Of a stretch of 42,515 nucleotides of DNA, positions 21,946 to 37,360 are shown in pieces (the stretch's first letter is position 1; each line of letters begins with the position of its first letter). The position numbers and the translations under genes were made by a program. The stretch spans positions 1 through 42,515 of the forward strand of contig CANQBA010000032.1 of the NCBI GenBank assembly GCA_947589545.1, written 5' to 3'. The DNA comes from an uncultured Oscillospiraceae bacterium (GTDB lineage: Bacteria; Bacillota; Clostridia; Oscillospirales; Oscillospiraceae). The notes beneath the pieces are model-generated. The model was not told the DNA's origin. It did not search any database and saw only the letters and a list, made by a program, of their open reading frames with translations.

Positions 21946-22002
21946 TATACCCCCAGCGGAGCCCAGACCAGTGCCGTGCTGTTCAGCCTCATAAAGACGG
22001 CA
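21946..22002 (+). pseudogene. Possible IS66 transposase C-terminal scrap
   Basis: A short stretch reads TPSGAQTSAVLFSLIKTA, close to the C-terminal motif of IS66 TnpC (TPxGAxASAxxYSxVETA). The surrounding frame has no other support. It lies in the degenerate region 21640-22058, where nothing else is recognisable. Confidence 0.4.
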
Positions 22003-22058
22003 TCGGTTCTGCAGCCAAGAAGCTTCACGGTTTCGCCGAGACTGTTATCTCAAATGTA

Positions 22059-22378
22059 TTATTCATATTCTTCTTTCAAGGGCCCGATACCGCAAACTAT
22101 ATACTTAAAATTGCTGTTGCATAGTTTTTGCAACGCCTTGATCATCAGTATGTGATTTTTATATACATTTTGGCAAGAGCATAATCTTCTTCGTTGGTTG
22201 TTATAAGCGCATCCGTTCAATGCTCAAGCAACCATTCGACGGGATAGAACATTAGCAAGTTTTCCTTTTGAAATATCGATAGCAATATCAATTGTATTAC
22301 CCTCATCAATCAGTTCTTTTAAGAGCACTTGAAGAAACCCATTGTTCCTCCAATGGTAGTTATGTATAATATCCTCAT
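22059..22378 (-). pseudogene. Decayed GT4 glycosyltransferase
   Basis: Three pieces of a GT4-type glycosyltransferase can be read on the minus strand in order: MRILYITTIGGTMGFFK then LLKELIDEGNTIDIA after a one-base frameshift; ITTNEEDYALAKMYIK; and MIKALQKLCNSNFKYIVCGIG then PLKEEYE and a stop. These match the start, the middle 'NxEDYxxAK' segment and the C-terminal 'NPNxxYxICGxGPLxxE' element of EpsD/Cps-type GT4 enzymes, but the sequence is only about 320 bp, so most of the gene has been deleted. It lies directly downstream of the AT-rich glycan operon and shows the ancestral locus once had a transferase here. Confidence 0.75.
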
Positions 22379-22588
22379 TTCAAGCCTCTGCAATAATATG
22401 AAATCAAGCTTACCACATAAACGAAAATATCAATTTATTGTAATTACGTACTTTTCAATCTTCTCCCATACAGTGTATCAGGCCTTGCAGTACAAATGTT
22501 TCGTGACTTTGCCATCGGTAAAGTATCCTTTTTCTCTTGTTATCTTCTCGGAAATAATAGTCATCCACCACTTCTATTATCAGGCCAA

Positions 22589-23330: not shown

Positions 23331-24443
23331 TTACATAGATTCTTTATAAAGAGTCACGATAATATTGTCCTCGTCAGCCAGTTTATCATTTTTTAGATTG
23401 CCGCTGACCATATCCGCAAGCTCTTCGGCGCTTGGCACTCTCCCAAGATCTGTAATATTTCGGGCAATATTCATTCCGTTCAGCCATTTTCTAATGCGAT
23501 CCTCAGGTCGTCCTTCTTCACATCCAAGCCAGTCAAGTATCCGTTTTATCCGCATTGGATTTACTGTGCTTTCGTACTTCATCCAAGCGGGATAAAGTGC
23601 GATCAGTCCCGCGCCATGACTTGTCTCAGTAACAACACCGATTGGATACTGTAAGCGGTGCGGCAGACAGTTTCCAATGTTTTTCACATTGTATCCCATA
23701 ATATGACTGGCAAAACTCATCATCTCCCTCGCCTCATGATCATCAAGATTTTTAGCGAGCCTTGGCAATGCCTCTCCGACAATCTTTATTGATTTCTCAG
23801 AAAGCATTTCGGAAAACATATCTGCTTTGACAGCGCAATAACTCTCCGCTGCGTGTGCGAATACATCAAACCCAGTTTCCATAGTCACTGTCAAAGGAAG
23901 TTTGAACGTATAAGTAGGATCTACTATTGCAACTGTCGGCGCCACATTCTCTCCTCGAATACCGGATTTTTTCTTTTTCTCCCGACTTGATATGATTGCC
24001 CCTTTGCTGAGTTCTGCGCCTGTTCCTGCCGTAGTTGGAATAGCTATGATAGGTAGGGTATCAACAGGAAGTATCAATTCCTGAATCAAATATTGTTCAA
24101 TATCAATATCAGAAACGATGCCCACTGCTGCTGCCTTAGCCGCATCTATGGCACTGCCGCCGCCGAAACCAATCACAGAATTAACATGATTCTCCTTGCC
24201 GATTTTTATTGCGTTTCTGATCTCATCAACATCAGGATTTGCCGTTACCTTATCATAGTAAAACACTTCTGATTTAAGCCACGACACCAGCTCATCCACA
24301 AACCCTAATTCCTTTAACGCGGTGCCTGTAGTTATTAAAAGAGTTTTGGAACCGATTATTTTTTTCTCTTTCTTAACTGCTTCCTCAACACATTTATTAC
24401 CAAAATATGTTCTTGTGTTCATCGAAAGCTGATATGATTTCAT
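23331..24443 (-). CDS. Iron-dependent alcohol dehydrogenase
   Basis: A 370-residue group III Fe-ADH. The NAD(P)-binding motif GGGSAIDAAKA lies at 94-104, followed by GTGAELSKGA. Metal ligands are suggested by DVFAHAAESY and ETSHGAGLIALYPAW. Members include lactaldehyde/propanediol, phosphonoacetaldehyde and butanol dehydrogenases. Here it sits between a sugar kinase/aldolase pair and a LicC-like enzyme, so it may reduce an aldolase-derived aldehyde to the alcohol used downstream. I saw no phosphoenolpyruvate mutase, so a phosphonate route is not supported. The gene starts 12 bases after the kinase gene. Confidence 0.85.
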   Translation of the reverse strand: MKSYQLSMNTRTYFGNKCVEEAVKKEKKIIGSKTLLITTGTALKELGFVDELVSWLKSEVFYYDKVTANPDVDEIRNAIKIGKENHVNSVIGFGGGSAIDAAKAAAVGIVSDIDIEQYLIQELILPVDTLPIIAIPTTAGTGAELSKGAIISSREKKKKSGIRGENVAPTVAIVDPTYTFKLPLTVTMETGFDVFAHAAESYCAVKADMFSEMLSEKSIKIVGEALPRLAKNLDDHEAREMMSFASHIMGYNVKNIGNCLPHRLQYPIGVVTETSHGAGLIALYPAWMKYESTVNPMRIKRILDWLGCEEGRPEDRIRKWLNGMNIARNITDLGRVPSAEELADMVSGNLKNDKLADEDNIIVTLYKESM

Positions 24444-24455
24444 ATCTGGTCCCCC

Positions 24456-25982
24456 TTACAAATTCTCAATTTGCATCTCCCTGGAACTTCTGATTTCATT
24501 CAGAACCTCTATTCGTCTGTCAAACATTGGAACCAATGATTCATACGTCTCTTTAAAAAGCTTATATACGACATTATACTTCTCATGATTATCCCTGTCA
24601 GGATGAATTGTCATTCTGCTTTTCGAGAACTTCTTCGAAAGATCCAAAAAGGAAATACCCTCTTGACCGTTTAATACCATCATAGCCGCACCGGACGCGG
24701 TAGTTTCAAATTCTGATAAAACAATCACCTCTTTCCCGGTAACATCTGCCTTGATCTGGGATATCAGATTAACTCTTGCAAGACCGCCGGAAAGACGAAC
24801 TGTGGTTACATCCGCGGTAGTTTCTCCTATCGCTTCCATCATTGTACGGTCTATAAACGCGGCAGCCTCAAAAACCGCTCTCGTCATGTCTTTTCGTGTA
24901 TGCATCCTTTCAAGGCCAAAGAATGTGCCTCTCGCATTGTCATTCCAAATTGGTGCCCGTTCGCCAAGAAGATAGGGCAAGAAAATGATACCTCTGGCGC
25001 CAACATCTGATTCCGCAGCTTCTTTTTCCATTACTTCATACGGATACTCTTCTTTTGAATAATAACATTGTTTAACCCACTCTATCAAACCTCCGCCGAG
25101 ATTATTCGAGCCTCCTATAATAGTAAAACCTCCCTGACGGAACGGTGTGGAATACACGCGCTCACTCGGAAGAAGTTCATCTTTTTTACTGAGCATACGG
25201 AACACGGTCACCGTTCCGCTTACATCACTTGCATCTCCCTCGCCGGATACGCCGCTTCCTACAAACGAGCAAACGGCGTCATAGGAAGTGACAATAATCT
25301 TTGCGGTATTGTTGCATCCAACTTGTCTTGCCACATCCTGCAATATCGTTCCAACACATTCCCCTGTTTTCATAACAGGGGGCAGTTTGTTCTCCGCAAT
25401 ACCGAGTTCTTCAAGAAGGCGGGAAGGATAAGATCTCGTATTAAGGGAATAATGAAATTTAACAGCATTTAATTCATCCGTAGCAACGACCCCGCTGAGG
25501 TGATAAAGCAAATAATCATTCGGAGATAAAAAATACCGTGCTTTTTTGAATGTCGTATTCTCATGCTTTTTAATCCACATTATTTTGGGCAGCATTACAC
25601 TAACAGATATAGGTAGTCCGGTGTCTTTTACTATATCTGCAATTAAAACATTGTCTTTTATCTCATTAACTTCTTCCACCGCCCTCTTATCGGAAACCAT
25701 AATTGCATTTCCAAGCGGATGACCGCTCTCATCCATACATACAAGACAGGAAGCCGATGTGGTAACGGTAATATAATCTATAAACTGAATCTTTGCGTCT
25801 TGAATCGATGAACGCATTACCCCAATAGCCTTATCCCACCATTCATCAGGATACTGTTCTACACGAATATCATCAATCGATGAGGTAAGCGTTCTTGATG
25901 CACTTGAAAGTTTCCTTCCGTTTGCATCGAATATTATGCTTCTTATACTTTTCATGCCCATATTAAGGACTAACACGTTCAT
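24456..25982 (-). CDS. FGGY-family carbohydrate kinase
   Basis: A 508-residue kinase of the FGGY group (xylulokinase/glycerokinase-like, ASKHA fold). The first domain begins MNVLVLNMGMKSIRSIIFDA. The second-domain motif LPYLLGERAPIWNDNARGTF and the phosphate/adenosine motif VRLSGGLARVNLISQIKAD are intact. It phosphorylates a ketose, polyol or similar substrate. I chose ATG 25982, since GGAG lies 9 bases upstream; an earlier ATG at 26009 has no Shine-Dalgarno. It is followed by the Fe-ADH and preceded by the aldolase gene, suggesting a kinase-aldolase-reductase series. Confidence 0.85.
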   Translation of the reverse strand: MNVLVLNMGMKSIRSIIFDANGRKLSSASRTLTSSIDDIRVEQYPDEWWDKAIGVMRSSIQDAKIQFIDYITVTTSASCLVCMDESGHPLGNAIMVSDKRAVEEVNEIKDNVLIADIVKDTGLPISVSVMLPKIMWIKKHENTTFKKARYFLSPNDYLLYHLSGVVATDELNAVKFHYSLNTRSYPSRLLEELGIAENKLPPVMKTGECVGTILQDVARQVGCNNTAKIIVTSYDAVCSFVGSGVSGEGDASDVSGTVTVFRMLSKKDELLPSERVYSTPFRQGGFTIIGGSNNLGGGLIEWVKQCYYSKEEYPYEVMEKEAAESDVGARGIIFLPYLLGERAPIWNDNARGTFFGLERMHTRKDMTRAVFEAAAFIDRTMMEAIGETTADVTTVRLSGGLARVNLISQIKADVTGKEVIVLSEFETTASGAAMMVLNGQEGISFLDLSKKFSKSRMTIHPDRDNHEKYNVVYKLFKETYESLVPMFDRRIEVLNEIRSSREMQIENL

Positions 25983-26028
25983 ATAGCTATTATCTCCATT
26001 ATTGTCCATATCTGTTGTATCGCCTTAG

Positions 26029-26814
26029 TTAAAGAAGTTTCATCTTCGCAACAGACTCTGACATTATTTCATCGTGAATGATCTTCGATGCATTGATCGG
26101 TTGTGACCAGGAACTACTTGCCTTTTCGATTCCTCTTTTGTATGCCATTTTCAAGTCGGTTGAAATGTTAATTTTTTTAACTCCAGGAATACGAATCAAT
26201 TTAGTCAAAACCTCATCCGACAGACCGCTTCCTCCATGAACAACAAACGGCTTATCCGTTATGGAAGTAGTATATTCGACAAGATCATAACGCAAGTTTG
26301 GTTCCACTTTATATTCCCCGTGAGCGTTACCAAACGCAACCGCAATAAGATCCACATCGGTTCTATGCAAAAATTCCGCGATCTCCTCTCTTGAAGCAAT
26401 TGCATCCTGCCGAACAATTACATCATCTTCAATTCCTTTTACTTGACCAACCTCAGCTTCAACTAAAACACCATGGGCATGGGCATACGATATAACCTCA
26501 TTTGTAAAATCAATATTTTGCTGTATTGGAAGAGAAGAACCGTCAGCCATAACCATATCCCATCCGCTATTTACCGCATGGAATAAAGTTTCCTTTTCTT
26601 TGCAGTGATCCAAATTAAGCAAAGCATGAATACCTCGATAGGCTGCATAAGTCTTCACAAAATTTGAAAACGCACAGGCAGGAAGCGCTTTATAAATTCC
26701 CGTTGAAGTCTGCAAGATGATGTCATGTTGAATTGATGCCGCCGCATCGATAACCGCTCTGGCTGATTCAAAATCCCATATGTTAAAAGCAAAATATTGA
26801 CCATTATTCAGCAT
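26029..26814 (-). CDS. Class II fructose/tagatose-bisphosphate-type aldolase
   Basis: A 261-residue class II (zinc) aldolase homologue. Visible landmarks are the catalytic Asp and zinc His in LNLDHC (D69, H70), VEAEVGQVKGIED with Glu (E119/E121), AFGNAHGEY (H165) and VVHGGSG (H193), followed by KINISTDLKMA. It is shorter than classical FBA and nearer the KbaY/GatY group. In the cluster it may cleave or form the product of the FGGY kinase, giving dihydroxyacetone phosphate and an aldehyde for the dehydrogenase. The substrate is unknown. RBS GAGGAG precedes the ATG. It is separated from LicD by a 260-base gap with no recognised gene. Confidence 0.85.
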   Translation of the reverse strand: MLNNGQYFAFNIWDFESARAVIDAAASIQHDIILQTSTGIYKALPACAFSNFVKTYAAYRGIHALLNLDHCKEKETLFHAVNSGWDMVMADGSSLPIQQNIDFTNEVISYAHAHGVLVEAEVGQVKGIEDDVIVRQDAIASREEIAEFLHRTDVDLIAVAFGNAHGEYKVEPNLRYDLVEYTTSITDKPFVVHGGSGLSDEVLTKLIRIPGVKKINISTDLKMAYKRGIEKASSSWSQPINASKIIHDEIMSESVAKMKLL

Positions 26815-27075
26815 CGGGTTCTCCTCAATAAAAACGATTTCGCTATCATTTATCGTAAATACTCACACATAGCTTTTCCGGATTCATTATGGTTTTACCG
26901 TGTAATGAATCAATTTGCCTTGCGCTCTAATGATTTGCTTCGAAATATTTGTTCCGACTCACGTTACGGTTCCACTGAAAAAGATAAACTCCGTGTTTAT
27001 TCATACGCCAGAAACAGCAAATATCTTATACTTTGCTTTTTTGATATTTAAAACATTAGGAGCATTTACATCACG

Positions 27076-27825
27076 CTATTTTACATGCTCCGGTTTTCGA
27101 TCTTCTACAGCCGGTAATTTCATATAGTCTCCATAGCAAATTGTTAAATATACATCATATTTTTGGGGAATATAAAATTTTGCGTCTTCAAAATCTACCA
27201 AAATTGCATTTTCCCAAGTATCAGAGGGGTACTTTTTTCTTATCCACCTATAAAAAATATTTGAGCAGTGAACACATTCTGTTTCTTTTTCATTTCCTAT
27301 CTGCGAGACCACATCATATCTTTTCCGAAGATATTCAGTAGAAAATAATTTTCCCAACATATGTGTCGTAAATAATAGCACTTTGTTTTTAAAGGAAAAA
27401 CCTTTATATACCACTTCTTCCTTCAACATTCCCTGTAATGCTGACAATCGAAATAATTTCATTTGAAATCTGAGCGGACTATCCGGCACATTATCGTTTA
27501 CAAATACATCTAAAGTGGGAATATATCCGCGTATCTCTGTCGAAGCTTTTTTCTGAATGCGGTAAATCCAAAGTTTTTTATGCATGGTTAATTCTCTGCA
27601 TTCACCGAAGCGCTCAACTAATTTGCTATAATTTTTCCTGTCAACACAAATATCCAAATCGTCATCCCACGGAATAAAGCCTTTATGCCTGACAGCGCCT
27701 AAACATGAACCTCCGTACAAAAAATATTTAATTCCTTCTTTTTCGCAAAAATTATGGAATATTTTCATGATATCCAATAATTCATTTTGTATTTTTTCTG
27801 TCCCGTATTGGTTTGGTTGAATCAT
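27076..27825 (-). CDS. LicD-family phosphotransferase
   Basis: A 249-residue protein with the LicD/fukutin nucleotidyltransferase fold. The signature GGSCLGAVRHKGFIPWDDD (about 38-56) with Asp residues is intact. Well-studied members transfer phosphocholine from CDP-choline to glycans, while fukutin-type relatives transfer ribitol phosphate. AGGAGG lies 10 bases before the ATG. It most likely pairs with the LicC-like enzyme at 22589. There is no choline transporter or LicA kinase in view, so the CDP substrate is probably not choline. Confidence 0.85.
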   Translation of the reverse strand: MIQPNQYGTEKIQNELLDIMKIFHNFCEKEGIKYFLYGGSCLGAVRHKGFIPWDDDLDICVDRKNYSKLVERFGECRELTMHKKLWIYRIQKKASTEIRGYIPTLDVFVNDNVPDSPLRFQMKLFRLSALQGMLKEEVVYKGFSFKNKVLLFTTHMLGKLFSTEYLRKRYDVVSQIGNEKETECVHCSNIFYRWIRKKYPSDTWENAILVDFEDAKFYIPQKYDVYLTICYGDYMKLPAVEDRKPEHVK

Positions 27826-27920
27826 TTTCCATCATCCTCCTAAATTGGATGTAAATCATTTTCTTTTTATAGCGTGAACGTCGGTTCCGCATATTCTCTT
27901 ACCATCGCAGGCAAGCAACT

Positions 27921-28310
27921 CTAATGTGCCTCTACAATTTCAACCATTCCGATCGTCAAAGAATACAGAAACGCTACTCTTTTTCCTCCAAACGCGATTG
28001 CAGGAGCAAGCTTAATAATCACCTTAAATCGATTTTTTACTAATAACTTTATATCTTCTTCTATGTCATTTGATACATAACAAATGTGATATGGCGTCGC
28101 GCCTATGTTCGTTAAGAAATTGTCCACAGGCGATCCACTACTGATTGGCGCAACAAGCTCAATTCTATATCCGTCCATTTTACCGAATGCAATATAGATA
28201 TTCCGATCACGATCTGTAATCGTTTCTTCAAACAAATATCCGAATGTTTCAAATATACTTTTGGCTTTGTCAATATCTTTAACCGCATATCCAATATGAT
28301 CAATTTTCAT
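27921..28310 (-). CDS. VOC (glyoxalase/epimerase-like) protein
   Basis: A 129-residue vicinal-oxygen-chelate protein with two paired βαβββ modules. The N-terminus MKIDHIGYAVKDIDKAKSIF resembles methylmalonyl-CoA epimerase, and metal-binding candidates are H5, E-rich RIELVAP, PYHICY (His) and the C-terminal VEIVEAH (Glu). ATG 28310 follows AGAGGATTT and lies 10 bases after the FkbH gene; the longer reading frame into FkbH is rejected. VOC genes beside FkbH-like genes occur in capsule loci, but I know of no assigned reaction. It may epimerise or isomerise the ACP-bound acyl group. Confidence 0.7.
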   Translation of the reverse strand: MKIDHIGYAVKDIDKAKSIFETFGYLFEETITDRDRNIYIAFGKMDGYRIELVAPISSGSPVDNFLTNIGATPYHICYVSNDIEEDIKLLVKNRFKVIIKLAPAIAFGGKRVAFLYSLTIGMVEIVEAH

Positions 28311-28320
28311 ATAAAATCCT

Positions 28321-29988
28321 CTATGATACAAAACAATCTGTGCACTCAAAGAAGCCTGTCGTTTTGGGCAAATCTTCGGTATCGATCCGAAAATCGCATT
28401 TATCGCCGGTTTCAATATCCACATTGGAATTGTCAGCCTGTGAAAATCCCAATTTGTCATACAAATGTAAAACCGGGGCGTTTTTTGCGCTTTTAATGTA
28501 TGAAGCATAAATTGTTTTAATAGACTTTTCAAGCCAATATTTTTTCAATTCAGCCATGATCTCAATTTCAGCCTTCCTGCTCATTACGCGGCAACTCATT
28601 AAGAAGGTATCTATTTCAGCATTATTTCCTGCATATTTTATGATCAGCACTCCTACAATACCCTGATCTCCATATTTGTCCGACATATGTACCGTTATAA
28701 CATCCGTATCTCGCTGCATGTTAAATTCTGATATATCATCCTCGTCATACCGTTTTGTCGTTGTGTTGAACTGATTCGTCTTATTCACAAGTTGCACAAC
28801 GCGCTTTAATTCTTCGGGTTTCATTAAATGAATGTCCATTTTCATATGGAGATTCTTCAGAAAATCTTCCGGCGAAGCGGAAGCGGAAAATTCCGTTTTC
28901 CGTTTTTGCTCTGCTTGGTACATGGCGGTTTTTTCGGCATCTTCGGCAGTAATATCCAACCTGAAAAAGTACTGTCGATAGATTTGGGACAGTACCTCGG
29001 GCAATTTTGACGTATCCTTTGGAAATTCAATGACCGTTACCTCCGGACATTCCGCTTTCATTTGTTCACGCTCTGCCGGATTATCGTCCAAAAAAACAAA
29101 CGCGTCCAAACCAATATTCAAATCTTTGGCAAGCTGCCGGATATTTTCTGACTTAGAATTCCAGTTTATGATTTCAGCGGCAAAATCCTCATGCCTTAGC
29201 AGCATATCCGGATGTGAAAAAACAGGTTCAACATCTTCCGGGTTGTTTTTAGAAAGGATCGCCAACATTACTCCCTGATTTTTCATCTGTTTCAGGAGTC
29301 TTTGCGCATCCTTATATCTTCTTCCCTCTTTGCTGTTTGAAAGCTGAATATTTTCAATGCCGTCTTCCCCGATAACACCTCCCCATAGTGTATTATCAAG
29401 GTCAACCGCAATACATTTCTTCTTTGCGCTCTTGGATGCCGAAAGATATTGAACGATCAATTCCGACAAAGCGGCCAACCCTTTTATAGAATACGGCATC
29501 GAGCCAATATACCACATTTTAGGAGAATAAAAAGCTTTTCTTCCAATGTCATACGCCAAATCATCTATCGGAAGCGTATAGATTCTCTTACCCTCATCGT
29601 AAAGCTTGTGAATCCCCTGATTCATAAACTCCGCAAAGTATAGATTCAGTCTTTGTTCTGCCGCATAATGACAATTATCTCCTGCTATATGAAAGGATGA
29701 GACAAATACGGGAATATTCGGCAAGCGATTTGTCAACGTCTTTAATGCGTTTACCCATTCCATAATCTGCCGTTCGCCGTTTTCTTTGCAATCCCAGATG
29801 TTTTCATGGCCATCTGCATACAATAATGCAACAATTGATTCAGGACCATATTCATATAAACCGGAATCCTCAGAAAGAATCTCCTGTTGCCATGTATCAA
29901 ATCCTGCCGGAATGTAAATATCGACATCATGCCTTAACTGATCCGCAAGCAGATCGACAGTAACATTTGATAAAAGAGCAACTCGCAT
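28321..29988 (-). CDS. FkbH-like HAD-IIIC protein (glyceryl-ACP synthase type)
   Basis: A 555-residue FkbH family protein. Its N-terminal SGNH-like part begins MRVALLSNVTVDLL, the HAD domain contains the catalytic DLDNTLWGG (about 196-204) and FLDDNPAEREQM, and the last part is a GNAT-like acyltransferase region with a Cys-rich end (FFECTDCF). In polyketide and tetronate pathways FkbH homologues load D-1,3-bisphosphoglycerate-derived glyceryl onto an ACP. Here it overlaps or touches the ACP gene at 30006, which fits that role. I use ATG 29988 with GGGAG 7 bases upstream; an ATG at 30006 overlapping the ACP stop is possible. It is not part of a PKS cluster in this window. Confidence 0.82.
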   Translation of the reverse strand: MRVALLSNVTVDLLADQLRHDVDIYIPAGFDTWQQEILSEDSGLYEYGPESIVALLYADGHENIWDCKENGERQIMEWVNALKTLTNRLPNIPVFVSSFHIAGDNCHYAAEQRLNLYFAEFMNQGIHKLYDEGKRIYTLPIDDLAYDIGRKAFYSPKMWYIGSMPYSIKGLAALSELIVQYLSASKSAKKKCIAVDLDNTLWGGVIGEDGIENIQLSNSKEGRRYKDAQRLLKQMKNQGVMLAILSKNNPEDVEPVFSHPDMLLRHEDFAAEIINWNSKSENIRQLAKDLNIGLDAFVFLDDNPAEREQMKAECPEVTVIEFPKDTSKLPEVLSQIYRQYFFRLDITAEDAEKTAMYQAEQKRKTEFSASASPEDFLKNLHMKMDIHLMKPEELKRVVQLVNKTNQFNTTTKRYDEDDISEFNMQRDTDVITVHMSDKYGDQGIVGVLIIKYAGNNAEIDTFLMSCRVMSRKAEIEIMAELKKYWLEKSIKTIYASYIKSAKNAPVLHLYDKLGFSQADNSNVDIETGDKCDFRIDTEDLPKTTGFFECTDCFVS

Positions 29989-30005
29989 TTCATGACTCCC
30001 ATTCA

Positions 30006-30236
30006 TCAATCAGCATTATCGGATGTTTGCGTGTACTTATAGAAATCCCGCAACGTCTTAATATGCGCGACCTCATCAATCGGTATTTCTATGTCGTAGT
30101 TTTCTTCAATTGCCATCACAAGCTTCAAATGCATAAGTGAATCCCATTTTTCTATTTCCCCGTATGCCGTATCCTCCGTAAGTTGGGATGCGTCAACATT
30201 CATTACTGTTGCAATAAAATCCAAAAAATTCTGCAT
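30006..30236 (-). CDS. Acyl carrier protein 1
   Basis: A 76-residue ACP, acidic and helical. The phosphopantetheine attachment site is the motif WDSLMHL with Ser33. A Ser in this position with Leu after it is the usual DSL pattern. It sits between the SDR and FkbH-like genes, so the FkbH-like enzyme most likely acylates it. AGGAGA lies upstream of the ATG. It is not the housekeeping ACP, which typically carries a DSLD motif and sits in a fab cluster. Confidence 0.82.
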   Translation of the reverse strand: MQNFLDFIATVMNVDASQLTEDTAYGEIEKWDSLMHLKLVMAIEENYDIEIPIDEVAHIKTLRDFYKYTQTSDNAD

Positions 30237-30247
30237 ATCGCTTTCTC

Positions 30248-30988
30248 CTATACTTTTCTTACAGAATGTCCCCCGTCTGCTGTAATAATCTGACCGTTAA
30301 TAAAGCGCGATTCCCGCGAAAGCAAAAAGCAAATCAGATTACTCGCGTCGGAAACTTCGCCTATGCCGAGCGGATAACTTTCAAGCAGACGCTTCAATTC
30401 ATCGGCTGTCATCTTATCCATCCAACCTCCTGACATAGAGGTTTTGACAGGGGCAAGACAGACCGCATTTATGCGTATTTTCTTTTCCATCAACTCGGCA
30501 GCCGCAGGCGCCAAATATCCCTCAAGAGCGCCCTTGGCCGAGGCATAAGCGCTGTGTCCCATTGCGCCTTCATGAGCCGATTGTGAAGAAATCAAAACAA
30601 TGCTCGTATCCTCATCATGATTTTGCTTCTTGCTGATTGCGGAAATGATCACCATCGGCACAAGGGCGTGAATACGCCACAAATTCTCAATATCTGTAAT
30701 TTTCGCCATGTGGATCGGAAACATTTTATCAAATCCTGCGCAATGCACAAATCCACCGATTTTTCCATGTTCCGAAACAATTCGTTTTATAAGTTCTGAA
30801 AGATGGTCGGTATCCATCAGATCATACTCATAAAGGAATAGACGATCAGACAACAGAGCTGCCATTTGTTTTATTTCTTCATTAAAATGCAAGTCGATCC
30901 CAATAACAGACGTTCCGGACGCAATCAACTGATCGGCAATTCCTTTTCCGATTCCGCCGGACACCCCGGTTATTACCACATTTTTCAT
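30248..30988 (-). CDS. SDR family oxidoreductase (FabG-like)
   Basis: A 246-residue short-chain dehydrogenase/reductase. The Rossmann motif TGVSGGIG is near residue 9, the catalytic Ser lies in ISSQSAHEG and the Tyr-Lys pair in YASAKGALEG. It ends HSVRKV. It could reduce a 3-oxoacyl-ACP made by the KASIII. I chose ATG 30988, which overlaps the ACP2 stop by four bases (ATGA). It is probably translated through coupling to ACP2. Confidence 0.85.
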   Translation of the reverse strand: MKNVVITGVSGGIGKGIADQLIASGTSVIGIDLHFNEEIKQMAALLSDRLFLYEYDLMDTDHLSELIKRIVSEHGKIGGFVHCAGFDKMFPIHMAKITDIENLWRIHALVPMVIISAISKKQNHDEDTSIVLISSQSAHEGAMGHSAYASAKGALEGYLAPAAAELMEKKIRINAVCLAPVKTSMSGGWMDKMTADELKRLLESYPLGIGEVSDASNLICFLLSRESRFINGQIITADGGHSVRKV

Positions 30989-31206
30989 TCCTGCACACAC
31001 TTTCTGTAAAGATCGCCTATGGTTTTACACTTAAGGAATTCTTCTACGGAAACCTTAACACCATATTCATCCTCCATCATTACGATAAGTGAAAAGCCCA
31101 TCAAGGAGCTAAAATCTTCGATCTCCTCACGGAAAACAGTATCCATCGTAATTTCTTCAGGTTTGACCTCAAAAATTTCAGCTGCAAGTTCAAAAAAATT
31201 TTCCAT
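30985..31206 (-). CDS. Acyl carrier protein 2
   Basis: A 73-residue, very acidic ACP-like protein. The probable attachment Ser is S34 in DFSSLMGF, where the Asp and Ser are not adjacent as in the canonical DSL, so attachment may need checking. GGAAGG lies before the ATG. It starts 7 bases after the KASIII stop and overlaps the SDR start, suggesting that this ACP serves the KASIII/SDR step, while ACP1 serves the FkbH-like enzyme. Confidence 0.72.
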   Translation of the reverse strand: MENFFELAAEIFEVKPEEITMDTVFREEIEDFSSLMGFSLIVMMEDEYGVKVSVEEFLKCKTIGDLYRKCVQE

Positions 31207-31213
31207 TAATAAA

Positions 31214-32308
31214 TCATCCTTCCTTTATTGGCATATCTTTATCATTTTCGGTATATTGAAAAAATTGATAAAACGCATTTGTATCAAGCGTTATGATACC
31301 TGCGCTGGCAGACAATCCTCCGCCGAATCCTGACATTAAAATCCGATTATTTTGAGTTTTATTCAGCTTTTCGTTTGCATTCAATGCAATTGTAACAGGA
31401 ATCGTTGCTGATGCGGAATTACCAACCGCGTCGCCCGACTGCCAAGTGCGATCCCATGTAAAATTCAATTTTTTTGCCAGCTTTTTTATCATATACATGT
31501 TAGCCTGGTGCGGAACAAAAGCATTCAGCGACTCACTGCTATCTCCGACCTCATTTAGAAATTTCATCAGCCACTTGGAAACATCCATCGCAACAAATTT
31601 AAAAACGGAAAATCCGTCCATATAAATGTCAATATTTCTGCGTTTTCCGTTTTCTTTATAATCCTGAAATTCCAAATCTTCCTCTTTGAAGGGCGACTTA
31701 GTCCCGCCGGATGGGATGATCAGCGCATCTCTTTGCGAACCGTCCGTATAGAACGTGAACACCCACTCATCTTCAGAGGAGCTTGGCGAAATCAACGTGG
31801 CAGATCCCGCGTCGGCCATGACCGGAACCGTTGATTTGTCATATTCGGATACGTAGGCGCTCTGAATATCTCCATCCAGCAGCAACACTTTTTTCCCCGA
31901 AGATTTTGCAAACAGAGAGGCAACATACATACCGTATGAATATCCCGAACACGCAAGACTAATATCAAAAGCCGGGATCTCCTTTGAGAGTCCGAGTTTT
32001 TCCTGCGCCAAAGACGCATTGAACGGCATAAGCCGATCCGGAGTGAAGGTTACAAAAATTACGCCTCCGATTTCTTCCGGTGAGGTATGCGTACCACATA
32101 ATAATTTTTGGGCGCACGCAATGCAAAGATCCGATGAAGTCGTTCCTGATTTTGCAATATACCGGGTTTTTATGCCCGTCGAATCAATGATCAATCTCGC
32201 ATCGTCACCGTACAAGTTTTTAAGGGCAGATTCGTTGTCAATTTTAATTTCAGGCACGCAGGAAACGATTCCGTCAATATGAATACCTTTGCAATGATAG
32301 ATTTGCAT
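31214..32308 (-). CDS. KASIII-like 3-oxoacyl-ACP synthase
   Basis: A 364-residue FabH-type thiolase-fold enzyme, longer than housekeeping FabH (about 320). The catalytic triad is intact: Cys120 (DISLACSGYSYG), His267 (VPHQANMYM) and Asn297 (GNSASATIP). Such enzymes condense an acyl-CoA starter with malonyl-ACP, or act as ester/amide-forming acyltransferases in specialised pathways (CerJ-like). AAGGAGA precedes the ATG. The C-terminus has an extra tail of about 20 residues (FYQFFQYTENDKDMPIKEG). It is 24 bases downstream of the NeuD gene and starts the acyl-ACP block. Confidence 0.86.
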   Translation of the reverse strand: MQIYHCKGIHIDGIVSCVPEIKIDNESALKNLYGDDARLIIDSTGIKTRYIAKSGTTSSDLCIACAQKLLCGTHTSPEEIGGVIFVTFTPDRLMPFNASLAQEKLGLSKEIPAFDISLACSGYSYGMYVASLFAKSSGKKVLLLDGDIQSAYVSEYDKSTVPVMADAGSATLISPSSSEDEWVFTFYTDGSQRDALIIPSGGTKSPFKEEDLEFQDYKENGKRRNIDIYMDGFSVFKFVAMDVSKWLMKFLNEVGDSSESLNAFVPHQANMYMIKKLAKKLNFTWDRTWQSGDAVGNSASATIPVTIALNANEKLNKTQNNRILMSGFGGGLSASAGIITLDTNAFYQFFQYTENDKDMPIKEG

Positions 32309-32332
32309 TGTGTTCTCCTTACTAAAAATGGC

Positions 32333-32974
32333 TTAAAATTCTATTCTTTTTGCGGGGACACCCATTACGGTAGTGCTCCTTTTTACATTTCTGATCACTA
32401 CAGAACCAGCACCCACAACAGAATGATCGCCGACTGTTTTACCCGGTAAGACTGTGCTGTTGGTGGATAGGTAAGCAAAGCTGCAGATTGTAACATGGCC
32501 GCATATACAGGTTCCCGACATAGCCGAAACATAATTTTCGATGATACAATCATGCCCTACTGTAACTGAAATGTTGAACAAACAATGAGAGCCGATTCGT
32601 GTATTCACGCTGACGTTCGTTCCGGCGCAAAGAATACAGCCACAGCCTATCGCGGAAGTATCGGAGATGTTGACGGAAGGGTGTATGAGCGTCTCCCAGC
32701 CATTGAAATTTGGAAACTTATCCACAATCCTTTTTCGGGCATCTCCATTCTGCATAGCAATCACCGCACTGACCTGATCCTTTTTTTGCAGTTCAGGAAG
32801 TGCATCTGTCGTTCCTAAGACCGGATACCCGTTCAAAGTCAATCCGATTTTGTTAATATCATCGTCTAAATATCCAAGGATCGTATAGGTAGGCGATACT
32901 TTGTTTATATCACCGATCAGCCAGGCAACTTCTTTTCCAAAATCTCCCGCACCTATAATAACAATGTTTTTCAT
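32333..32974 (-). CDS. NeuD/PglD-like hexapeptide O/N-acyltransferase
   Basis: A 213-residue protein with the NeuD family layout: an N-terminal Rossmann-like domain (MKNIVIIGAGDFGKEVAWLI) that binds the sugar nucleotide or substrate, followed by a left-handed beta-helix with hexapeptide repeats (about 95-205). The catalytic His is probably that of VTVGHDC. Family members acetylate sialic acid or UDP-amino sugars. The neighbouring ACP, KASIII and FkbH genes suggest it may accept an ACP-bound donor instead of acetyl-CoA. The ATG overlaps the stop of a short leftover frame (ATGA). It is the first gene of the AT-rich block. Confidence 0.82.
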   Translation of the reverse strand: MKNIVIIGAGDFGKEVAWLIGDINKVSPTYTILGYLDDDINKIGLTLNGYPVLGTTDALPELQKKDQVSAVIAMQNGDARKRIVDKFPNFNGWETLIHPSVNISDTSAIGCGCILCAGTNVSVNTRIGSHCLFNISVTVGHDCIIENYVSAMSGTCICGHVTICSFAYLSTNSTVLPGKTVGDHSVVGAGSVVIRNVKRSTTVMGVPAKRIEF

Positions 32975-33006
32975 TTTTCAACTGCCACGCTTTCTGAAGT
33001 ATTGCG

Positions 33007-33147
33007 CTAACAGCGGTTGTGATCCGACAATGGCAAGGTATCCGCATATGTACCGATGGCGTAGACGTTGTTTTCGTAGATGTCGAACACGATGAGCTGC
33101 TTCGGTTCATAAGCCGCGATCTGGCGGCAGAACTCGGAACCCATCTC
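33007..33147 (-). pseudogene. CapD/FlaA1-like epimerase/dehydratase fragment
   Basis: Directly after the fabD stop, the minus strand reads GSEFCRQIAAYEPKQLIVFD and then IYENNVYAIG, which is the beginning of the NAD-binding domain of CapD/WbpM-type nucleotide-sugar epimerase/dehydratases (GSIGSELCRQI... followed by P..LI..DIYENN). The preceding glycines and everything after are missing. It marks the join between the GC-rich fabD block and the AT-rich cluster. Confidence 0.75.
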
Positions 33148-34020
33148 CTATATGCCCATACATTTCGGGCGAAAGGTGATGGCCTTGTTCATTTTTCTCA
33201 AAACCTGGCCGTTACCCACCTCGTAAAACGCCTCAACGCCCGCGTCTTTCATGGCGATTATGCTGTCGTACCACCTGACCTGGCCCGTGATCTGCGTCAG
33301 AAGGTTCGCTTTGATCTCGGCAAGCTCCTTAGTTGGCCTGCCGGTCACGTTGGACACGACGTAAGCCGCCGGCTCGTGAAGCTTTACCGTTTCGATTTCC
33401 TTTGTCATGATCTCGGCGGCGTTTTTCATCTGCGGACTGTGAAAAGCCGCGCTGACGTTCAGGCGCTTTACCTTGACATCTTCCCTGTCCGCAAGCCTCC
33501 CGGCTACCTTGTCAACGGCGCTCCCAGCGCCGGAAATAACGATCTGGGTTTTGGTGTTGAGATTCGCCATCACCACGTCGGGTATCCCCTCGAGATATCC
33601 CTGCAACTGGCTCTCCTCAAGGCCGAGCACCGCCGCCATGATTCCCTTGCCGTTTTCGGCGCTCATCGCCTGTCCGCGTTTGAGCACGAGCCTTAAGCCG
33701 TCGGAAAAGCTGAACACCCCCGCCGCGTAAAGGGCCGTGTACTCGCCCAGACTGTGCCCCGCCACATAGCCGTAGTCGATGCCGTCGAGCTTTGCCTTTT
33801 CCAAATACATCGCGGAACAGGTGTAGATCGCGGGCTGGGCATACTGAGTGTCCGTCAGCTTTTCCAGTGGGCCGTTGAACATCAGATCCTTCAGGTCAAA
33901 TTCGGCGACGTCGCACGCCTCGTCCAAAATTGCTTTGGCCTGCGGTAGCTGTTCATACAGCTCCTTTCCCATGCCCACCTCCTGGGATCCCTGGCCGGGA
34001 AAAAGCAGCGCGTTCACCAC
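33148..34020 (-). CDS. fabD: Malonyl-CoA:ACP transacylase
   Basis: A 290-residue MCAT. The nucleophile Ser90 lies in GHSLGEYTAL; the catalytic His is in AAFHSPQM; LFPGQGSQ starts the domain. It transfers malonyl from CoA to ACP for fatty-acid or related synthesis. GTG start with AAAGGAG upstream. The last residues (MNKAITFRPKCMGI) differ from usual FabD ends and the protein is about 15-20 residues short, consistent with recombination at its 3' end; the active-site domain is intact. It lies at the end of the transcarboxylase operon and just before the AT-rich cluster. Confidence 0.88.
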   Translation of the reverse strand: MVNALLFPGQGSQEVGMGKELYEQLPQAKAILDEACDVAEFDLKDLMFNGPLEKLTDTQYAQPAIYTCSAMYLEKAKLDGIDYGYVAGHSLGEYTALYAAGVFSFSDGLRLVLKRGQAMSAENGKGIMAAVLGLEESQLQGYLEGIPDVVMANLNTKTQIVISGAGSAVDKVAGRLADREDVKVKRLNVSAAFHSPQMKNAAEIMTKEIETVKLHEPAAYVVSNVTGRPTKELAEIKANLLTQITGQVRWYDSIIAMKDAGVEAFYEVGNGQVLRKMNKAITFRPKCMGI

Positions 34021-34039
34021 AAATCAGCTCCTTTGCTTG

Positions 34040-35584
34040 TCACAGCGGGATATTCCCGTGCTCCCTGTATCCGGCCGCAGTCCTGTTCTTGTTTCTCAAC
34101 GCCGCGAAGGCCGCCTTGATCTTTGCGCCGGTCTCCTCCGGGAGGATGACCTCGTCGATGAAGCCCCGCTCGGCCGCGATATAGGGGGTCATGTATTCGT
34201 CCTCGTATGCCTTCACCAGCCTGCTTCTCTCCGCGTCAGGGTCGGCCGAGGCTTTGATCTGTTTGCCGTACATGATATTGACGGCACCGTCGGCGCCCAT
34301 GACGGCTGTCTGGGCTATGGGCCACGCGAAAACCATATCCGCGCCCATCCCCTTGCTGTTCATGGCGATATACGCCCCGCCATACGCTTTCCGCAGGATC
34401 AGCGTCACCTTTGGCACCGTGGCCTCCGCGTAGGCGTACAGGAGCTTGGCTCCCCGGCGGATGATCCCGCCGTGCTCCTGCTTCGTCCCCGGCATGAAGC
34501 CCGGCACATCCACCAGCGTCAGGATGGGGATGTTGAAGCAGTCGCAGAACCTGACGAACCGGGCCGCTTTTTCGGAGGAATCTATGTCCAGCGAACCGGC
34601 CATGCCGCCCTGGGGGTTGTTGGCCACGATCCCCAGCGTCTCTCCCTCAAGTCTGGCAAAGCCCACCACGATATTTTTCGCGAACTGAGCCTGCACCTCA
34701 AAAAAGGAATCCTCGTCGATGAACGTATGAATAACGTCCTTTATGTTGTATATCCGCCTCTGGTTATCCGGGACTATTTCCTCAAGGCTTGCGGAATCGT
34801 CTTTCGCCGTTCCCTCGACTCTCGGCGGCCTCTGGCTCCGGTTATCCGGAAGATAGGACAAGAGGCGCTTCACCCCGTCCAGACACTGAAGGTCGTCCGG
34901 GTATGTGAAATGCGCCACGCCGCTCTTTCTGGCGTGTACCGCGGCGCCGCCCAGCTCGTTTGCCGGGACGCTCTCGCCCAGCACCGTCTTGACGACCTCC
35001 GGGCCCGTGATGAACATGTCCGCACTTTGCTCGGACATAAACACAAAGTCCGTGATGGCCGGGGAATAGCACGCCCCCCCGGCGCACGGGCCGAGGATCA
35101 CGGAGATCTGCGGTATGATCCCCGACGCTCTTGTATTCCTGTAAAAGATACCGCTGTACCCGTTCAGGGAGCTTATCCCCTCCTGGATCCTCGCGCCGCC
35201 CGAATCGTTGATGGACACATACGGGGCGGACATCTTCAGCGCCAGATCCATGATGTGGCAAATCTTGCGGGAGTGAACTTCTCCCAGCGTGCCGCCCTGC
35301 ACCGTAAAATCCTGTGCCGAGGCGTAGACGACCCGGCCGTTGATCGTTCCATAGCCCGTGATCACACCGTCCCCGGGAACCGGTTTCCTGTCCGACCCGG
35401 CCCGATCCGGCATCATCAGCGTGTTGATCTCCACAAAAGAGCCCTCGTCAAAGAGATAGTCGAGCCTTTCCCGGGCCGTCCGCTTGCCCTTGCCGTGCTG
35501 GCTGTCTATCCTTGCCTGTCCGCCGCCGGCGTACGCCGTCTCCCGGCGTCTTTCAAGCTCCGCCCTGTATTTCCCGTCCCACAT
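34040..35584 (-). CDS. PccB/12S-type acyl-CoA carboxyltransferase
   Basis: A 514-residue carboxyltransferase of the AccD/PccB/MmdA family with two crotonase-like domains. Recognisable segments are GTINGRVVYASAQDFTVQGG (CoA-binding domain), SINDSGGARIQEG, GPCAGGACYSPA and VDVPGFMPGTKQEHGGIIRRGAKLLYAYAEATVPKVTLI. It transfers CO2 between carboxybiotin and acyl-CoA. FabD next to it suggests acetyl-CoA/malonyl-CoA rather than propionyl-CoA/methylmalonyl-CoA, but that residue-level specificity is not decided here. AAAGGT precedes the ATG. It is 15 bases after the OadA-like gene. Confidence 0.85.
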   Translation of the reverse strand: MWDGKYRAELERRRETAYAGGGQARIDSQHGKGKRTARERLDYLFDEGSFVEINTLMMPDRAGSDRKPVPGDGVITGYGTINGRVVYASAQDFTVQGGTLGEVHSRKICHIMDLALKMSAPYVSINDSGGARIQEGISSLNGYSGIFYRNTRASGIIPQISVILGPCAGGACYSPAITDFVFMSEQSADMFITGPEVVKTVLGESVPANELGGAAVHARKSGVAHFTYPDDLQCLDGVKRLLSYLPDNRSQRPPRVEGTAKDDSASLEEIVPDNQRRIYNIKDVIHTFIDEDSFFEVQAQFAKNIVVGFARLEGETLGIVANNPQGGMAGSLDIDSSEKAARFVRFCDCFNIPILTLVDVPGFMPGTKQEHGGIIRRGAKLLYAYAEATVPKVTLILRKAYGGAYIAMNSKGMGADMVFAWPIAQTAVMGADGAVNIMYGKQIKASADPDAERSRLVKAYEDEYMTPYIAAERGFIDEVILPEETGAKIKAAFAALRNKNRTAAGYREHGNIPL

Positions 35585-35599
35585 GTTTGGTTTTACCTT

Positions 35600-36991
35600 T
35601 CAAATGTTATTTCCGTCCCATTCAACAACGATCTCATGGATGTTCTCCCGTTTTCTTATGAACTCCGGCGCCACCTGAGGGAACAGTGCGCAGCTCAAAA
35701 GATCCTCGGTACTCCGGCATATACCGCCGTATTCGTCCCGGATCTTGCCCATCTCCGGTTCTATGAGATCTGCGGGCCGGCATCGGATGATCTCATCCCC
35801 GCCGATAGCCCGTCTCCTAACGTCCTCATTCACTTCTCCCGGCAGCTGACCGTACTCGCCCCGAAGCAGGGCCTTCGCCTCTTTTGTGAAGCTCCTGTAT
35901 CGCCCCATCAGGACGTTCAACACCGCCTGGGAGCCTATGATCTGACTGGTGGGCGTCACCAGCGGCGGATACCCAAAGTCCGCCCGCACCGCCGGAACCT
36001 CCCGGAGGACATCCTCGAGCCTGTTTTCCGCGTTGGCCTGCCTGAGCTGAGAGATGAGATTTGACAGCATCCCGCCCGGCACCTGATAGAGCAGCGTGTT
36101 GGGATCGGCCCGGAGGACTTTGGTGCTTATAAGTCCCTCCGTCTCCATCCGCGCCGCCACCGTCTTGAAATGGCTCGCGGCCTCGTTCAACTTTTTCAGA
36201 TCCAGCCCGGTGTCCCGGCCCGTCCCTCTCAGCGCCGCCACCATCGATTCCGTCCCCGGCTGGGACGACCCGTTGGCAAAGGGCGACAGCGCGCAATCTA
36301 TGATGTCCACGCCCGCCATCGCGGCGGCCAGATAGACCATCGAGCCGGTGCCCGCCGTGTTGTGCGTGTGGAGGTGGATGGGGATATCCAGCTCCGCTTT
36401 CAGCTTATATATGAGGCTGTAGGCGTCGCTCGGGAGCAGAAGATTTGCCATATCCTTGACGCAGATCACATCGGCGCCCAGCGTCTTCAGCTCTCTGGCC
36501 TTTTGAATGAAATATTCCTCGCTGTGCACGGAGCTCGTGGTGTAGCTCAAGGCCGCCTCCACGGTACCGCCGCTTTTCTTGACCGCCCGTATGGCCGTCT
36601 CCATATTCCGAACATCGTTCAGCGCGTCAAAGACGCGAACGATGTCTATGCCGTTCTCAATGGATTTCTGAACAAACGTCTCCACAACGTCGTCAGCATA
36701 GTGCCGGTATCCCAGAAGGTTCTGCCCCCGCAGGAGCATTTGCAGCTTTGTCTTTGGGAGCGCTCTGCGCAGCTGTCTCAGTCTCTCCCAGGGATCCTCT
36801 TTTAAAAAACGCATACAGGCGTCAAATGTCGCCCCGCCCCAGCACTCCAGGGACCAGTAACCGATATCGTCCAGTATCTCACAGGCGGGGAGCATATCCT
36901 CGACCCGCATCCTTGTGGCGGCCTGGGACTGGTGCGCGTCTCGAAGAATCGTATCGGTTATGTATAGCTGCTTTCCCCTGAACTCCAACAC
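35600..36991 (-). CDS. OadA/5S-type carboxyltransferase subunit
   Basis: A 463-residue DRE-TIM barrel protein of the oxaloacetate decarboxylase alpha/pyruvate carboxylase B/transcarboxylase 5S group. Signatures: ITDTILRDAHQSQAATRM (metal Asp18), ADVICVKDMANLL (Lys that is carboxylated in relatives) and IHLHTHNTAGTG (metal His pair). No C-terminal biotinyl domain is present; the biotin carrier is the separate protein at 36995. GTG start at 36991 with GGAGG lying inside the carrier gene end. It would move CO2 from oxaloacetate to biotin. Confidence 0.88.
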   Translation of the reverse strand: MLEFRGKQLYITDTILRDAHQSQAATRMRVEDMLPACEILDDIGYWSLECWGGATFDACMRFLKEDPWERLRQLRRALPKTKLQMLLRGQNLLGYRHYADDVVETFVQKSIENGIDIVRVFDALNDVRNMETAIRAVKKSGGTVEAALSYTTSSVHSEEYFIQKARELKTLGADVICVKDMANLLLPSDAYSLIYKLKAELDIPIHLHTHNTAGTGSMVYLAAAMAGVDIIDCALSPFANGSSQPGTESMVAALRGTGRDTGLDLKKLNEAASHFKTVAARMETEGLISTKVLRADPNTLLYQVPGGMLSNLISQLRQANAENRLEDVLREVPAVRADFGYPPLVTPTSQIIGSQAVLNVLMGRYRSFTKEAKALLRGEYGQLPGEVNEDVRRRAIGGDEIIRCRPADLIEPEMGKIRDEYGGICRSTEDLLSCALFPQVAPEFIRKRENIHEIVVEWDGNNI

Positions 36992-36994
36992 GGT

Positions 36995-37360
36995 TTATGC
37001 CTCCAACTCCATAAGCGGGGCGTCCGCCGCGACAGTCTGGCCCTCCGCCACAAAAACCGCGCTGACCTTCCCCGCTTTTGGGGCGCACACCTCGTTTTCC
37101 ATCTTCATGGCTTCAAGGAGCAGGAGCACGTCACCCTCGGCGACCATATCGCCCGGCTTTACCATAATTTGAAGGATATTTCCAGGCATCGGAGCCGTTA
37201 TGGTGTTGGGACCGGCCTCGGCTGTCTTCTCCGGCACGGGAGCGGGTCTTGGTTCTTCGCCCTTAGGCGTCTCAAGCTTCTTTTTGGGATTCCCCTCCTC
37301 AATAAGCTCAATTTCCATTTCGTAAGTTTTGCCGCCTATTTTTATTCTGTAAAGGCTCAT
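36995..37360 (-). CDS. Biotin carboxyl carrier protein
   Basis: A 121-residue carrier. The C-terminal biotinyl domain (about 52-121) has the EAMKMEN motif with Lys86 as the biotinylation site. The middle is a Pro/Glu/Lys-rich linker and the first 20 residues form a short N-terminal strand block (MSLYRIKIGGKTYEMEI). It serves the 5S-like and 12S-like subunits next to it. The start overlaps the 41-residue protein gene by four bases (ATGA). Confidence 0.92.
   Translation of the reverse strand: MSLYRIKIGGKTYEMEIELIEEGNPKKKLETPKGEEPRPAPVPEKTAEAGPNTITAPMPGNILQIMVKPGDMVAEGDVLLLLEAMKMENEVCAPKAGKVSAVFVAEGQTVAADAPLMELEA

Follow-up and report, generated by a model that had tools for sequence, protein, structure and literature searches.

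A probable ACP-dependent sugar acylation cassette with an adjoining malonyl supply in an Oscillospiraceae genome

A 42,515-nt contig stretch (the window) from an Oscillospiraceae metagenome-assembled genome (MAG; host genome G000) carries, at 27921-32974 on the minus strand, a block of seven genes for a NeuD-type acyltransferase, KASIII, an acyl carrier protein (ACP1), a short-chain dehydrogenase/reductase (SDR), a second carrier (ACP2), FkbH and a VOC protein. Together with FabD and a three-gene transcarboxylase encoded upstream, this block probably constitutes a self-contained, transferable acyl-ACP cassette in a host that apparently makes no fatty acids. What would such a cassette be for? 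The gene set, catalytic motifs that are intact where checked, the conserved association of the genes, the selection acting on them and the failure to detect a second malonyl set point to the N-acylation of an amino sugar that would enter a surface glycan, with the acyl group supplied by an ACP, a function to which we give roughly four chances in five. For the chemistry, the odds seem to us even that the route is glyceryl-primed and malonyl-extended, with a predicted 3,4,5-trihydroxypentanoyl product. A preliminary description of this DNA had recognized the seven genes and an ACP-based line in glycan surroundings that builds acyl groups for a sugar acyltransferase; the observation is real, the system is larger than first noted, and the interpretation was partly right.

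Family tests agree with all seven assignments (Table 1). The KASIII triad C120, H267 and N297, named correctly in the preliminary description, is present in the window and at five related loci (L033-L037), and in an alignment of nine KASIIIs the three columns hold C, H and N throughout; the window protein scores below the curated cut-offs for housekeeping FabH (TIGR00747, 184.3 versus 292.1; NF006829, 211.4 versus 249). VioB (7txp) is the best PDB match of the window NeuD, and the His-Asp of its GHD motif is kept in eight of eight aligned NeuDs; we take the His region of NeuD, PglD and VioB to be catalytic. ACP1 is 77-81% identical to its counterparts at L034-L037, and Ser-Leu is found in the window and L033-L037. 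FkbH carries DLDNTLWGG at 203 (the HAD DxDxT motif) and SCRV at 472, whose conserved Cys in the transferase half presumably has a functional role; searched against plasmids, it matched 40 records, with 30-35% identity among the 12 matches listed. The H/E/H/E positions of VOC, which we take to be the metal site of the superfamily, are invariant in all seven aligned sequences. VOC scores 67.9 bits against the methylmalonyl-CoA epimerase model, short of its cut-off of 114.95, and the PDB chains nearest to it bear the names lactoylglutathione lyase and glyoxalase I. A candidate phosphopantetheinyl transferase is present in the host, with scores under the cut-offs.

The genes are tightly spaced, as first described: with the longest open reading frames (ORFs), the gaps from NeuD to VOC are 24, 7, -16, 11, -4 and 10 bases. 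The "several" four-base overlaps reported with them shrink to at most two, both dependent on the choice of start codon (ACP2/FkbH, TTG 30009; ACP1/SDR, ATG 30988). VOC is read from ATG 28310, and its longest ORF would start at 28532. The ratio of nonsynonymous to synonymous substitution rates (dN/dS), measured across the whole divergence from L033, is 0.07-0.25 for all seven genes, which indicates purifying selection.

FkbH-based examination of genome contigs gave 16 pattern matches and six confirmed loci (L033-L038). The order KASIII-ACP1-SDR-ACP2-FkbH-VOC recurs in five of the six, and because of this recurrence and the low dN/dS the block is, on comparative grounds, not a chance association. 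KASIII, ACP1 and SDR are present at every one of the five loci that continue past FkbH (L033-L037). ACP2 adjoins FkbH in the window, at all six loci and at L053; ACP1 and SDR are neighbors at the same places except L038. Block-type NeuD occurs at five of the six, L035 having none; FabD directly precedes KASIII at three, and the carboxyltransferase CT is found at two (L034, L035). L038 was considered as a minimal NeuD-ACP-FkbH module; the end of its contig falls within FkbH, and the idea was abandoned for that reason. Block-type KASIIIs are rare, with two of 391 class genomes (E 1e-100) and two of 398 phylum genomes (E 1e-85) containing one, host included. The class match, L053, has all seven genes at 31-56% identity in another order, DegT-PglC-NeuD-KASIII-ACP2-FkbH-VOC-ACP1-SDR.

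FkbH itself is more widespread, matching 71 of 394 order-level genomes at E 1e-40 (host included). We examined the 30 best loci, one of which is the window's, with flanks mostly of about 1.5 kb and some shorter. Among the other 29, an ACP gene is present in 24, MBOAT in 12, VOC in 5, a weak NeuD-like gene in 1, and KASIII or SDR in none. These counts suggest that FkbH-ACP(-VOC) is a portable module whose neighbor is often an MBOAT gene, and they make its coupling to KASIII in the window unusual. At L041-L044, FkbH-ACP-VOC is followed by a DltB/MBOAT-like gene, with an SGNH-like gene also at L042 and L043 (named by eye); glyceryl O-acylation of an envelope polymer is the probable function there. 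The host has a second FkbH-ACP-VOC set on contig 49 (L039), its FkbH 32-33% identical; three integrase genes, 87-92% alike, lie close by.

The seven genes stand as described, but the right limit set for the block leaves out 33148-37360, where FabD and the transcarboxylase are encoded. BCCP (biotin carboxyl carrier protein), OadA/5S, CT/12S and FabD lie directly upstream on the same strand, spaced by 3-19 bases. Does FabD belong with the block? It is 59-66% identical to the block FabDs of three relatives and 32-34% identical to FabDs of type II fatty acid synthesis (FASII). In a tree with seven FASII rows, two of them the same G399 protein, the four block FabDs (window, L034, L035, L037) form one clade with support of 100/100, apart from the FASII FabDs. 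FabD belongs, as far as this phylogeny can tell, with the block; its assignment as a host housekeeping gene was rejected, as FabD occurs in one of 12 same-genus genomes and the window protein groups with block FabDs. No terminator-like site is listed on the coding strand of the FabD-NeuD interval, in a scan that ran near chance overall (20 promoter-like sites versus 16.1 expected, standard deviation 4.4; 18 terminator-like versus 12.2, standard deviation 3.6).

The three remaining genes resemble the subunit set of a transcarboxylase; such an enzyme would presumably move a carboxyl group from oxaloacetate to another acid and need no biotin carboxylase. As in the Propionibacterium transcarboxylase, the 12S, 5S and 1.3S subunit types occur together, in a genome with no biotin carboxylase match; the window set differs in adjoining FabD and in missing the 5S equivalog cut-off. 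OadA exceeds the cut-off of the pyruvate carboxylase subunit B domain model and misses the equivalog cut-offs. For the transcarboxylase set, scores fall below the curated 5S and mmdA thresholds (NF008984, 559 versus 827; TIGR01117, 723 versus 998.8). We take EAMKM to be the biotin motif of BCCP. CT Ile406 aligns with position 422 of Streptomyces PccB and presumably permits acceptance of acetyl-CoA, unlike in the Propionibacterium enzyme; together with the AAFH motif of FabD it fits, in our assumption, malonyl/acetyl-CoA rather than methylmalonyl. A methylmalonyl extender, suggested by the mmdA-like and epimerase-like matches, is not favored given these two motifs and given that VOC accompanies FkbH without CT elsewhere. 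Biotin carboxylase sets carboxylases apart from transcarboxylases and decarboxylases, according to the portion of PMC3199775 available.

The host MAG is estimated at 99.85% completeness and 3.55% contamination. Its sequence yields no FabD beyond the window's, no other Carboxyl_trans protein, no FabF and no biotin carboxylase (searched by its C domain). Among same-genus genomes, FabD occurs in one of 12, and Carboxyl_trans, FabF and biotin carboxylase in one of nine each, always G399. This genome has an ordinary FASII cluster, and the FabD encoded there shares 33% identity with that of the window. The host thus seems to lack FASII, and, because a second FabD or carboxyltransferase, FabF and biotin carboxylase went undetected, the malonyl supply seems dedicated to the block. 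The pattern across the host and its genus amounts to an apparent loss of FASII in a genus of gut Clostridia.

Under the proposed pathway, OadA and CT would move a carboxyl group from oxaloacetate via the biotin of BCCP to acetyl-CoA. Malonyl-CoA would form in this way with no biotin carboxylase involved, and FabD would load malonyl onto ACP1. FkbH would draw on 1,3-bisphosphoglycerate, with removal of phosphate, to form D-glyceryl-ACP2, and VOC may then epimerize C2 of the glyceryl thioester; this last step is plausible and weakly supported, because the models point to methylmalonyl-CoA epimerase and the PDB neighbors to glyoxalases. KASIII would condense glyceryl from ACP2 with malonyl-ACP1, SDR would reduce the 3-oxo group to give 3,4,5-trihydroxypentanoyl-ACP1, and NeuD would place the acyl group on the 4-amino nitrogen of UDP-2-acetamido-4-amino-2,4,6-trideoxyglucose, or of a similar sugar, ahead of a PglC-type transfer to the lipid carrier. 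The preliminary description had NeuD attach an acyl group to a sugar; that role is retained. The acceptor is most likely a UDP-4-amino-4,6-dideoxy sugar, acylated on its amino group, so that the bond would be an amide formed before glycan assembly.

Why would one line need two carriers? A plasmid locus of Parabacteroides distasonis (NZ_OY725812.1, L078) encodes NeuD (32%), KASIII (39%), SDR (25%) and two ACPs, in a polysaccharide locus that has PglF- and PglC-type genes within the same 19 kb. An AMP-ligase stands where the window has FkbH, and tblastn found no match in those 19 kb to the window FkbH, VOC, FabD, CT, OadA or BCCP. Since this NeuD-ACP-ACP-AMP-ligase-KASIII-SDR set keeps the plan with another loader, the starter loader looks exchangeable, and a starter on one ACP with an extender on the other would favor 3,4,5-trihydroxypentanoyl. 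For the same reason one product from a two-ACP line is more likely than the "one or two" acyl groups first proposed. On a broader and more tentative view, which we hold somewhat short of even odds, the cassette may be a portable, FASII-independent mini-polyketide line within a glycan island, with oxaloacetate-fed malonyl-CoA and a glyceryl starter, possibly epimerized, from FkbH and VOC, placing 3,4,5-trihydroxypentanoyl on a bacillosamine-like sugar, its loader (FkbH or AMP-ligase) and acyltransferase (NeuD or LpxD-like) both exchangeable.

The relatives are located in polysaccharide-type loci. A DegT aminotransferase gene and then a PglC-type transferase gene directly precede NeuD at L033, L037, L038 and L053; L034 has the order DegT, CT, two NeuDs, L038 has a PglF-type dehydratase, and no DegT match was found at L036. 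At L035, a hexapeptide acyltransferase precedes FabD and the block, with LpxD as its best NCBIfam model (118.3 bits, missing the cut-off of 207). Its neighbors resemble a Gfo/Idh-like dehydrogenase, a PseC-like aminotransferase and a TviB-like dehydrogenase; all miss equivalog cut-offs, and only a general nucleotide-sugar dehydrogenase model was passed. LpxD uses an acyl-ACP donor and a UDP-amino sugar acceptor. In the window, the 173 bases between FabD and NeuD consist of fused remnants of PglF- and PglC-type genes. From these remnants and the DegT/PglC neighbors of the relatives, the ancestral acceptor was probably UDP-4-amino-4,6-dideoxy-GlcNAc. The surface-glycan island of the preliminary description therefore holds as a glycan setting and not as an intact locus: PglF, PglC and GT4 types are seen there only as remnants, and a DegT aminotransferase gene lies on contig 12 of the host. 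That contig carries DegT-PglC-GT4 with no NeuD between (PglC 57% and GT4 46% identical to those of L033) and is a candidate partner for the block in trans. Directly before this set lies a Phage_integrase-family recombinase gene (L075, 9098-9976), beside a DltA-ACP-MBOAT-like set identified by eye.

Table 1. Features of the block, its upstream malonyl-supply genes and adjoining island genes and remnants
Feature	Coordinates	Strand	Evidence
BCCP, biotin carrier, 1.3S-like	36995..37360	-	Biotin_lipoyl 76.6 bits; EAMKM motif
OadA/transcarboxylase 5S-like carboxyltransferase	35600..36991	-	PYC_OADA, HMGL-like; Propionibacterium 5S chain 1rqb E 4e-129
CT, 12S/PccB-like acyl-CoA carboxyltransferase	34040..35584	-	Carboxyl_trans 620.8 bits; Ile406 at PccB-422 position
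FabD, malonyl-CoA:ACP transacylase, block-specific clade	33148..34020	-	TIGR00128 281.7 bits vs 260.9
PglF-type dehydratase remnant	33144-33040	-	tblastn 62.5% over 40 aa, E 4e-13
PglC-type transferase remnant	33049-32999	-	tblastn 70.6% over 17 aa, E 4e-6
NeuD/PglD/VioB-type acyltransferase, proposed N-acyltransferase	32333..32974	-	TIGR03570 181.1 bits vs cut-off 160.8
KASIII	31214..32308	-	Pfam ACP_syn_III and ACP_syn_III_C both over cut-off
ACP1, proposed malonyl/ketoacyl carrier	30985..31206	-	PF00550 over cut-off
SDR, proposed 3-oxoacyl-ACP reductase	30248..30988	-	adh_short_C2 over cut-off; alternative start GTG 31000
ACP2, proposed glyceryl carrier, WDSL	30006..30236	-	PF00550 over cut-off
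FkbH, HAD-IIIC + transferase domain	28321..30009	-	TIGR01686 318.8 bits vs cut-off 146.65
VOC protein, methylmalonyl-CoA-epimerase-like	27921..28310	-	Glyoxalase_4 over cut-off
LicD-type phosphotransferase, downstream neighbor, possibly later island step	27076..27825	-	LicD 114.9 bits
GT4 glycosyltransferase remnant, four pieces	22002..22417	-	54-66% to L033 GT4

Several observations weigh against the sugar acylation pathway in the form proposed here. Since the sugar genes adjoining the block are broken in the window, the block would have to work in trans, and the host is a MAG with the contamination given above. OadA and BCCP were not found in the examined stretches of all six scanned loci, and OadA-like DNA is frequent across the genus and occurs elsewhere in the host; the transcarboxylase link therefore rests on adjacency and on CT, OadA alone not being diagnostic. 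G+C content falls from 0.56-0.60 to 0.43 at about 33.1 kb, where third-position use also shifts sharply, so FabD/CT and NeuD-VOC have different histories and sources; a contig error at this junction is possible. The phylum KASIII match, L076, is a NeuD-KASIII-ACP1 set with FkbH, VOC and SDR unmatched in 19.7 kb, and its lack of FkbH counts against an obligatory KASIII-FkbH link. As the viosamine (vio) island of Pseudomonas syringae lacks FkbH too, such KASIIIs can work without glyceryl: the product assigned to vio is 3-hydroxybutanoyl, one ACP is used, and none of FkbH, VOC, FabD and a transcarboxylase is among the seven genes in the part of PMC3927599 available. Two NeuDs at L034, and an extra gene behind VOC shared by L034 and L036 (no Pfam match for that of L034), make two acyl groups possible at these loci.

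Might the window, too, encode two separate acyl groups? KASIII, using acetyl-CoA and malonyl-ACP1, would then act with SDR to give 3-hydroxybutanoyl-ACP1 for NeuD, and the glyceryl group of FkbH-ACP2-VOC would be used elsewhere or by the same NeuD. The vio precedent, in which KASIII, SDR, one ACP and a NeuD homolog are proposed to yield 3-hydroxybutanoyl-viosamine (PMC3927599, as excerpted), speaks for such a division, as do L076, the paired NeuDs of L034 and the occurrence of FkbH-ACP(-VOC) without KASIII: of the 29 other order-level FkbH loci, none shows KASIII and 12 show MBOAT within flanks of about 1.5 kb. It fits poorly with the company that KASIII, ACP1 and SDR keep with FkbH at five of five loci (L033-L037), with L053, found through KASIII, where FkbH, ACP2 and VOC are intermixed in another order, with the one sugar acyltransferase found in the window, and with the Parabacteroides locus, which pairs its second ACP with a different loader. 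We regard two groups as unlikely, though worth keeping in mind. A reading compatible with any of these is that the cassette is real but decaying here, recombination or deletion having joined two glycan clusters so that the sugar genes were lost and the acyl genes left functionless. The PglF/PglC and GT4 remnants, the G+C step at the same place and the isolation of 22516-33147 from its relatives (below) would all follow; the acyl-side genes, however, are open, with motifs intact where checked, the dN/dS values argue for constraint, albeit across the whole divergence from L033, and the contig 12 set could use the block in trans. Decay is in our judgment improbable, at about the weight of an outside chance. 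Least credible is a diffusible tetronate-like metabolite, with KASIII joining glyceryl-ACP2 to a short ketoacyl chain and the ring released without any glycan. FkbH, ACP and a FabH-like protein do belong to the tetronate-making set (PMC7489565, in part), but general scans of the 22 window proteins, with no dedicated search, gave no polyketide synthase, as the preliminary description had it, and no Agg4/Agg5-type gene; NeuD and aminosugar genes recur in relatives, and a malonyl loader and a reductase are what chain extension would call for. We think this very improbable and retain sugar N-acylation as the preferred function.

The flank comparison covered the right flank and 22516-33147. Same-genus genomes match the right flank (about 37.8-42.5 kb), at best with 89% and 70% in G398. 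For 22516-33147, none of 19 relatives gave a match longer than 84 bases among the candidates scored, of which there were up to 15 per genome. Genes for an amidase, a phage holin, undecaprenyl pyrophosphate synthase, a glgA-like protein and DUF1385 lie at 37800-42515, and the host has further copies of parts of this stretch, 85-95% alike, on its contigs 47, 125 and 96. LicD is found behind VOC at L037 as well as in the window. Behind the window LicD, a class II aldolase, an FGGY kinase, an iron alcohol dehydrogenase and a nucleotidyltransferase follow in a row (22589-26814), a set suggestive of the synthesis of a CDP-activated polyol or a similar phosphate decoration. At L034, 16067-21110 encodes LicD, a nucleotidyltransferase fused to a phosphoenolpyruvate mutase domain, an iron alcohol dehydrogenase and a thiamine pyrophosphate enzyme, and phosphonate decoration is likely there.

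How could bacterial glycans acquire glycerate-derived acyl groups? The cassette suggests one way. For the glyceroyl group on Tannerella pseudaminic acid, the responsible gene was reported as elusive in the portion of PMC6120980 available. Moreover, should fatty acid synthesis truly be lacking in the host, its sole malonyl-CoA and malonyl-ACP enzymes would serve a glycan, which would make it a clean setting for a test of the pathway. A 3,4,5-trihydroxypentanoyl group was not met in the literature consulted, as far as the texts were available, nor was an account of this gene set in the literature on FkbH or Campylobacter glycerate, a coverage mostly outside subscription journals; the available portion of PMC13317340 makes no mention of FkbH, acyl carrier, 3-oxoacyl, VOC or glyceric.

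The comparisons that follow draw on the available portions of the cited accounts. Di-O-methylglyceric acid on pseudaminic acid is known from Campylobacter jejuni, whose flagellin locus contains the FkbH-domain gene cj1302 (PMC7099621, PMC3068675); the likeness to the window is an FkbH-domain gene in a glycan locus, here a flagellar one, and these portions do not show an assignment of cj1302 to glycerate. Enterobacterial flagellin islands have ACP, FabG and related genes, with FkbH nowhere in the portion of the account available (PMC4875605). Among the tetronate glycerate-utilization genes, such as mad7/8/16, a stand-alone ACP is proposed to receive glyceryl from FkbH, and the use of glyceryl-ACP by a FabH-like enzyme is described for a tetronate pathway, in favor of the glyceryl-primed route (PMC7489565). 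The window block shares FkbH, ACP and the FabH-like protein; tetronate systems also have an acyltransferase and a dehydratase and release a polyketide as a ring, whereas the window has a reductase, a malonyl loader and a sugar acyltransferase.

The closest known systems are those for N-acylated 4-amino sugars. In the O-polysaccharide R1 genes wfpC-wfpG of Flavobacterium psychrophilum, the predicted role of a PglD homolog is to acylate UDP-D-Qui2NAc4NH2 with a hydroxyacyl group carried by a locus-specific ACP; a 3,5-dihydroxyhexanoyl amide is known by structure, and ketoacyl-ACP synthases and a reductase are adjacent (PMC6519341). The window shares ketoacyl synthase, ACP, reductase and PglD homolog, and has FkbH, VOC, FabD and the carboxyltransferase, none of them named in the available part of that account, where one ACP is named (PMC6519341). 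The Pseudomonas syringae island vioA/B/S/R/acp combines the NeuD-type VioB, the KASIII VioS, the SDR VioR and an ACP for an N-acylated 4-amino sugar, and a vioR mutant lost the modified viosamine (PMC3927599). NeuD-type acyltransferase, KASIII, SDR and ACP likewise stand together in the window, which thus contains the core common to vio and wfp. ACP-dependent sugar acylation is already known or proposed in Flavobacterium and Pseudomonas; the present cassette extends it to gut Clostridia, and what is new here is FkbH, VOC, the second ACP and the malonyl supply.

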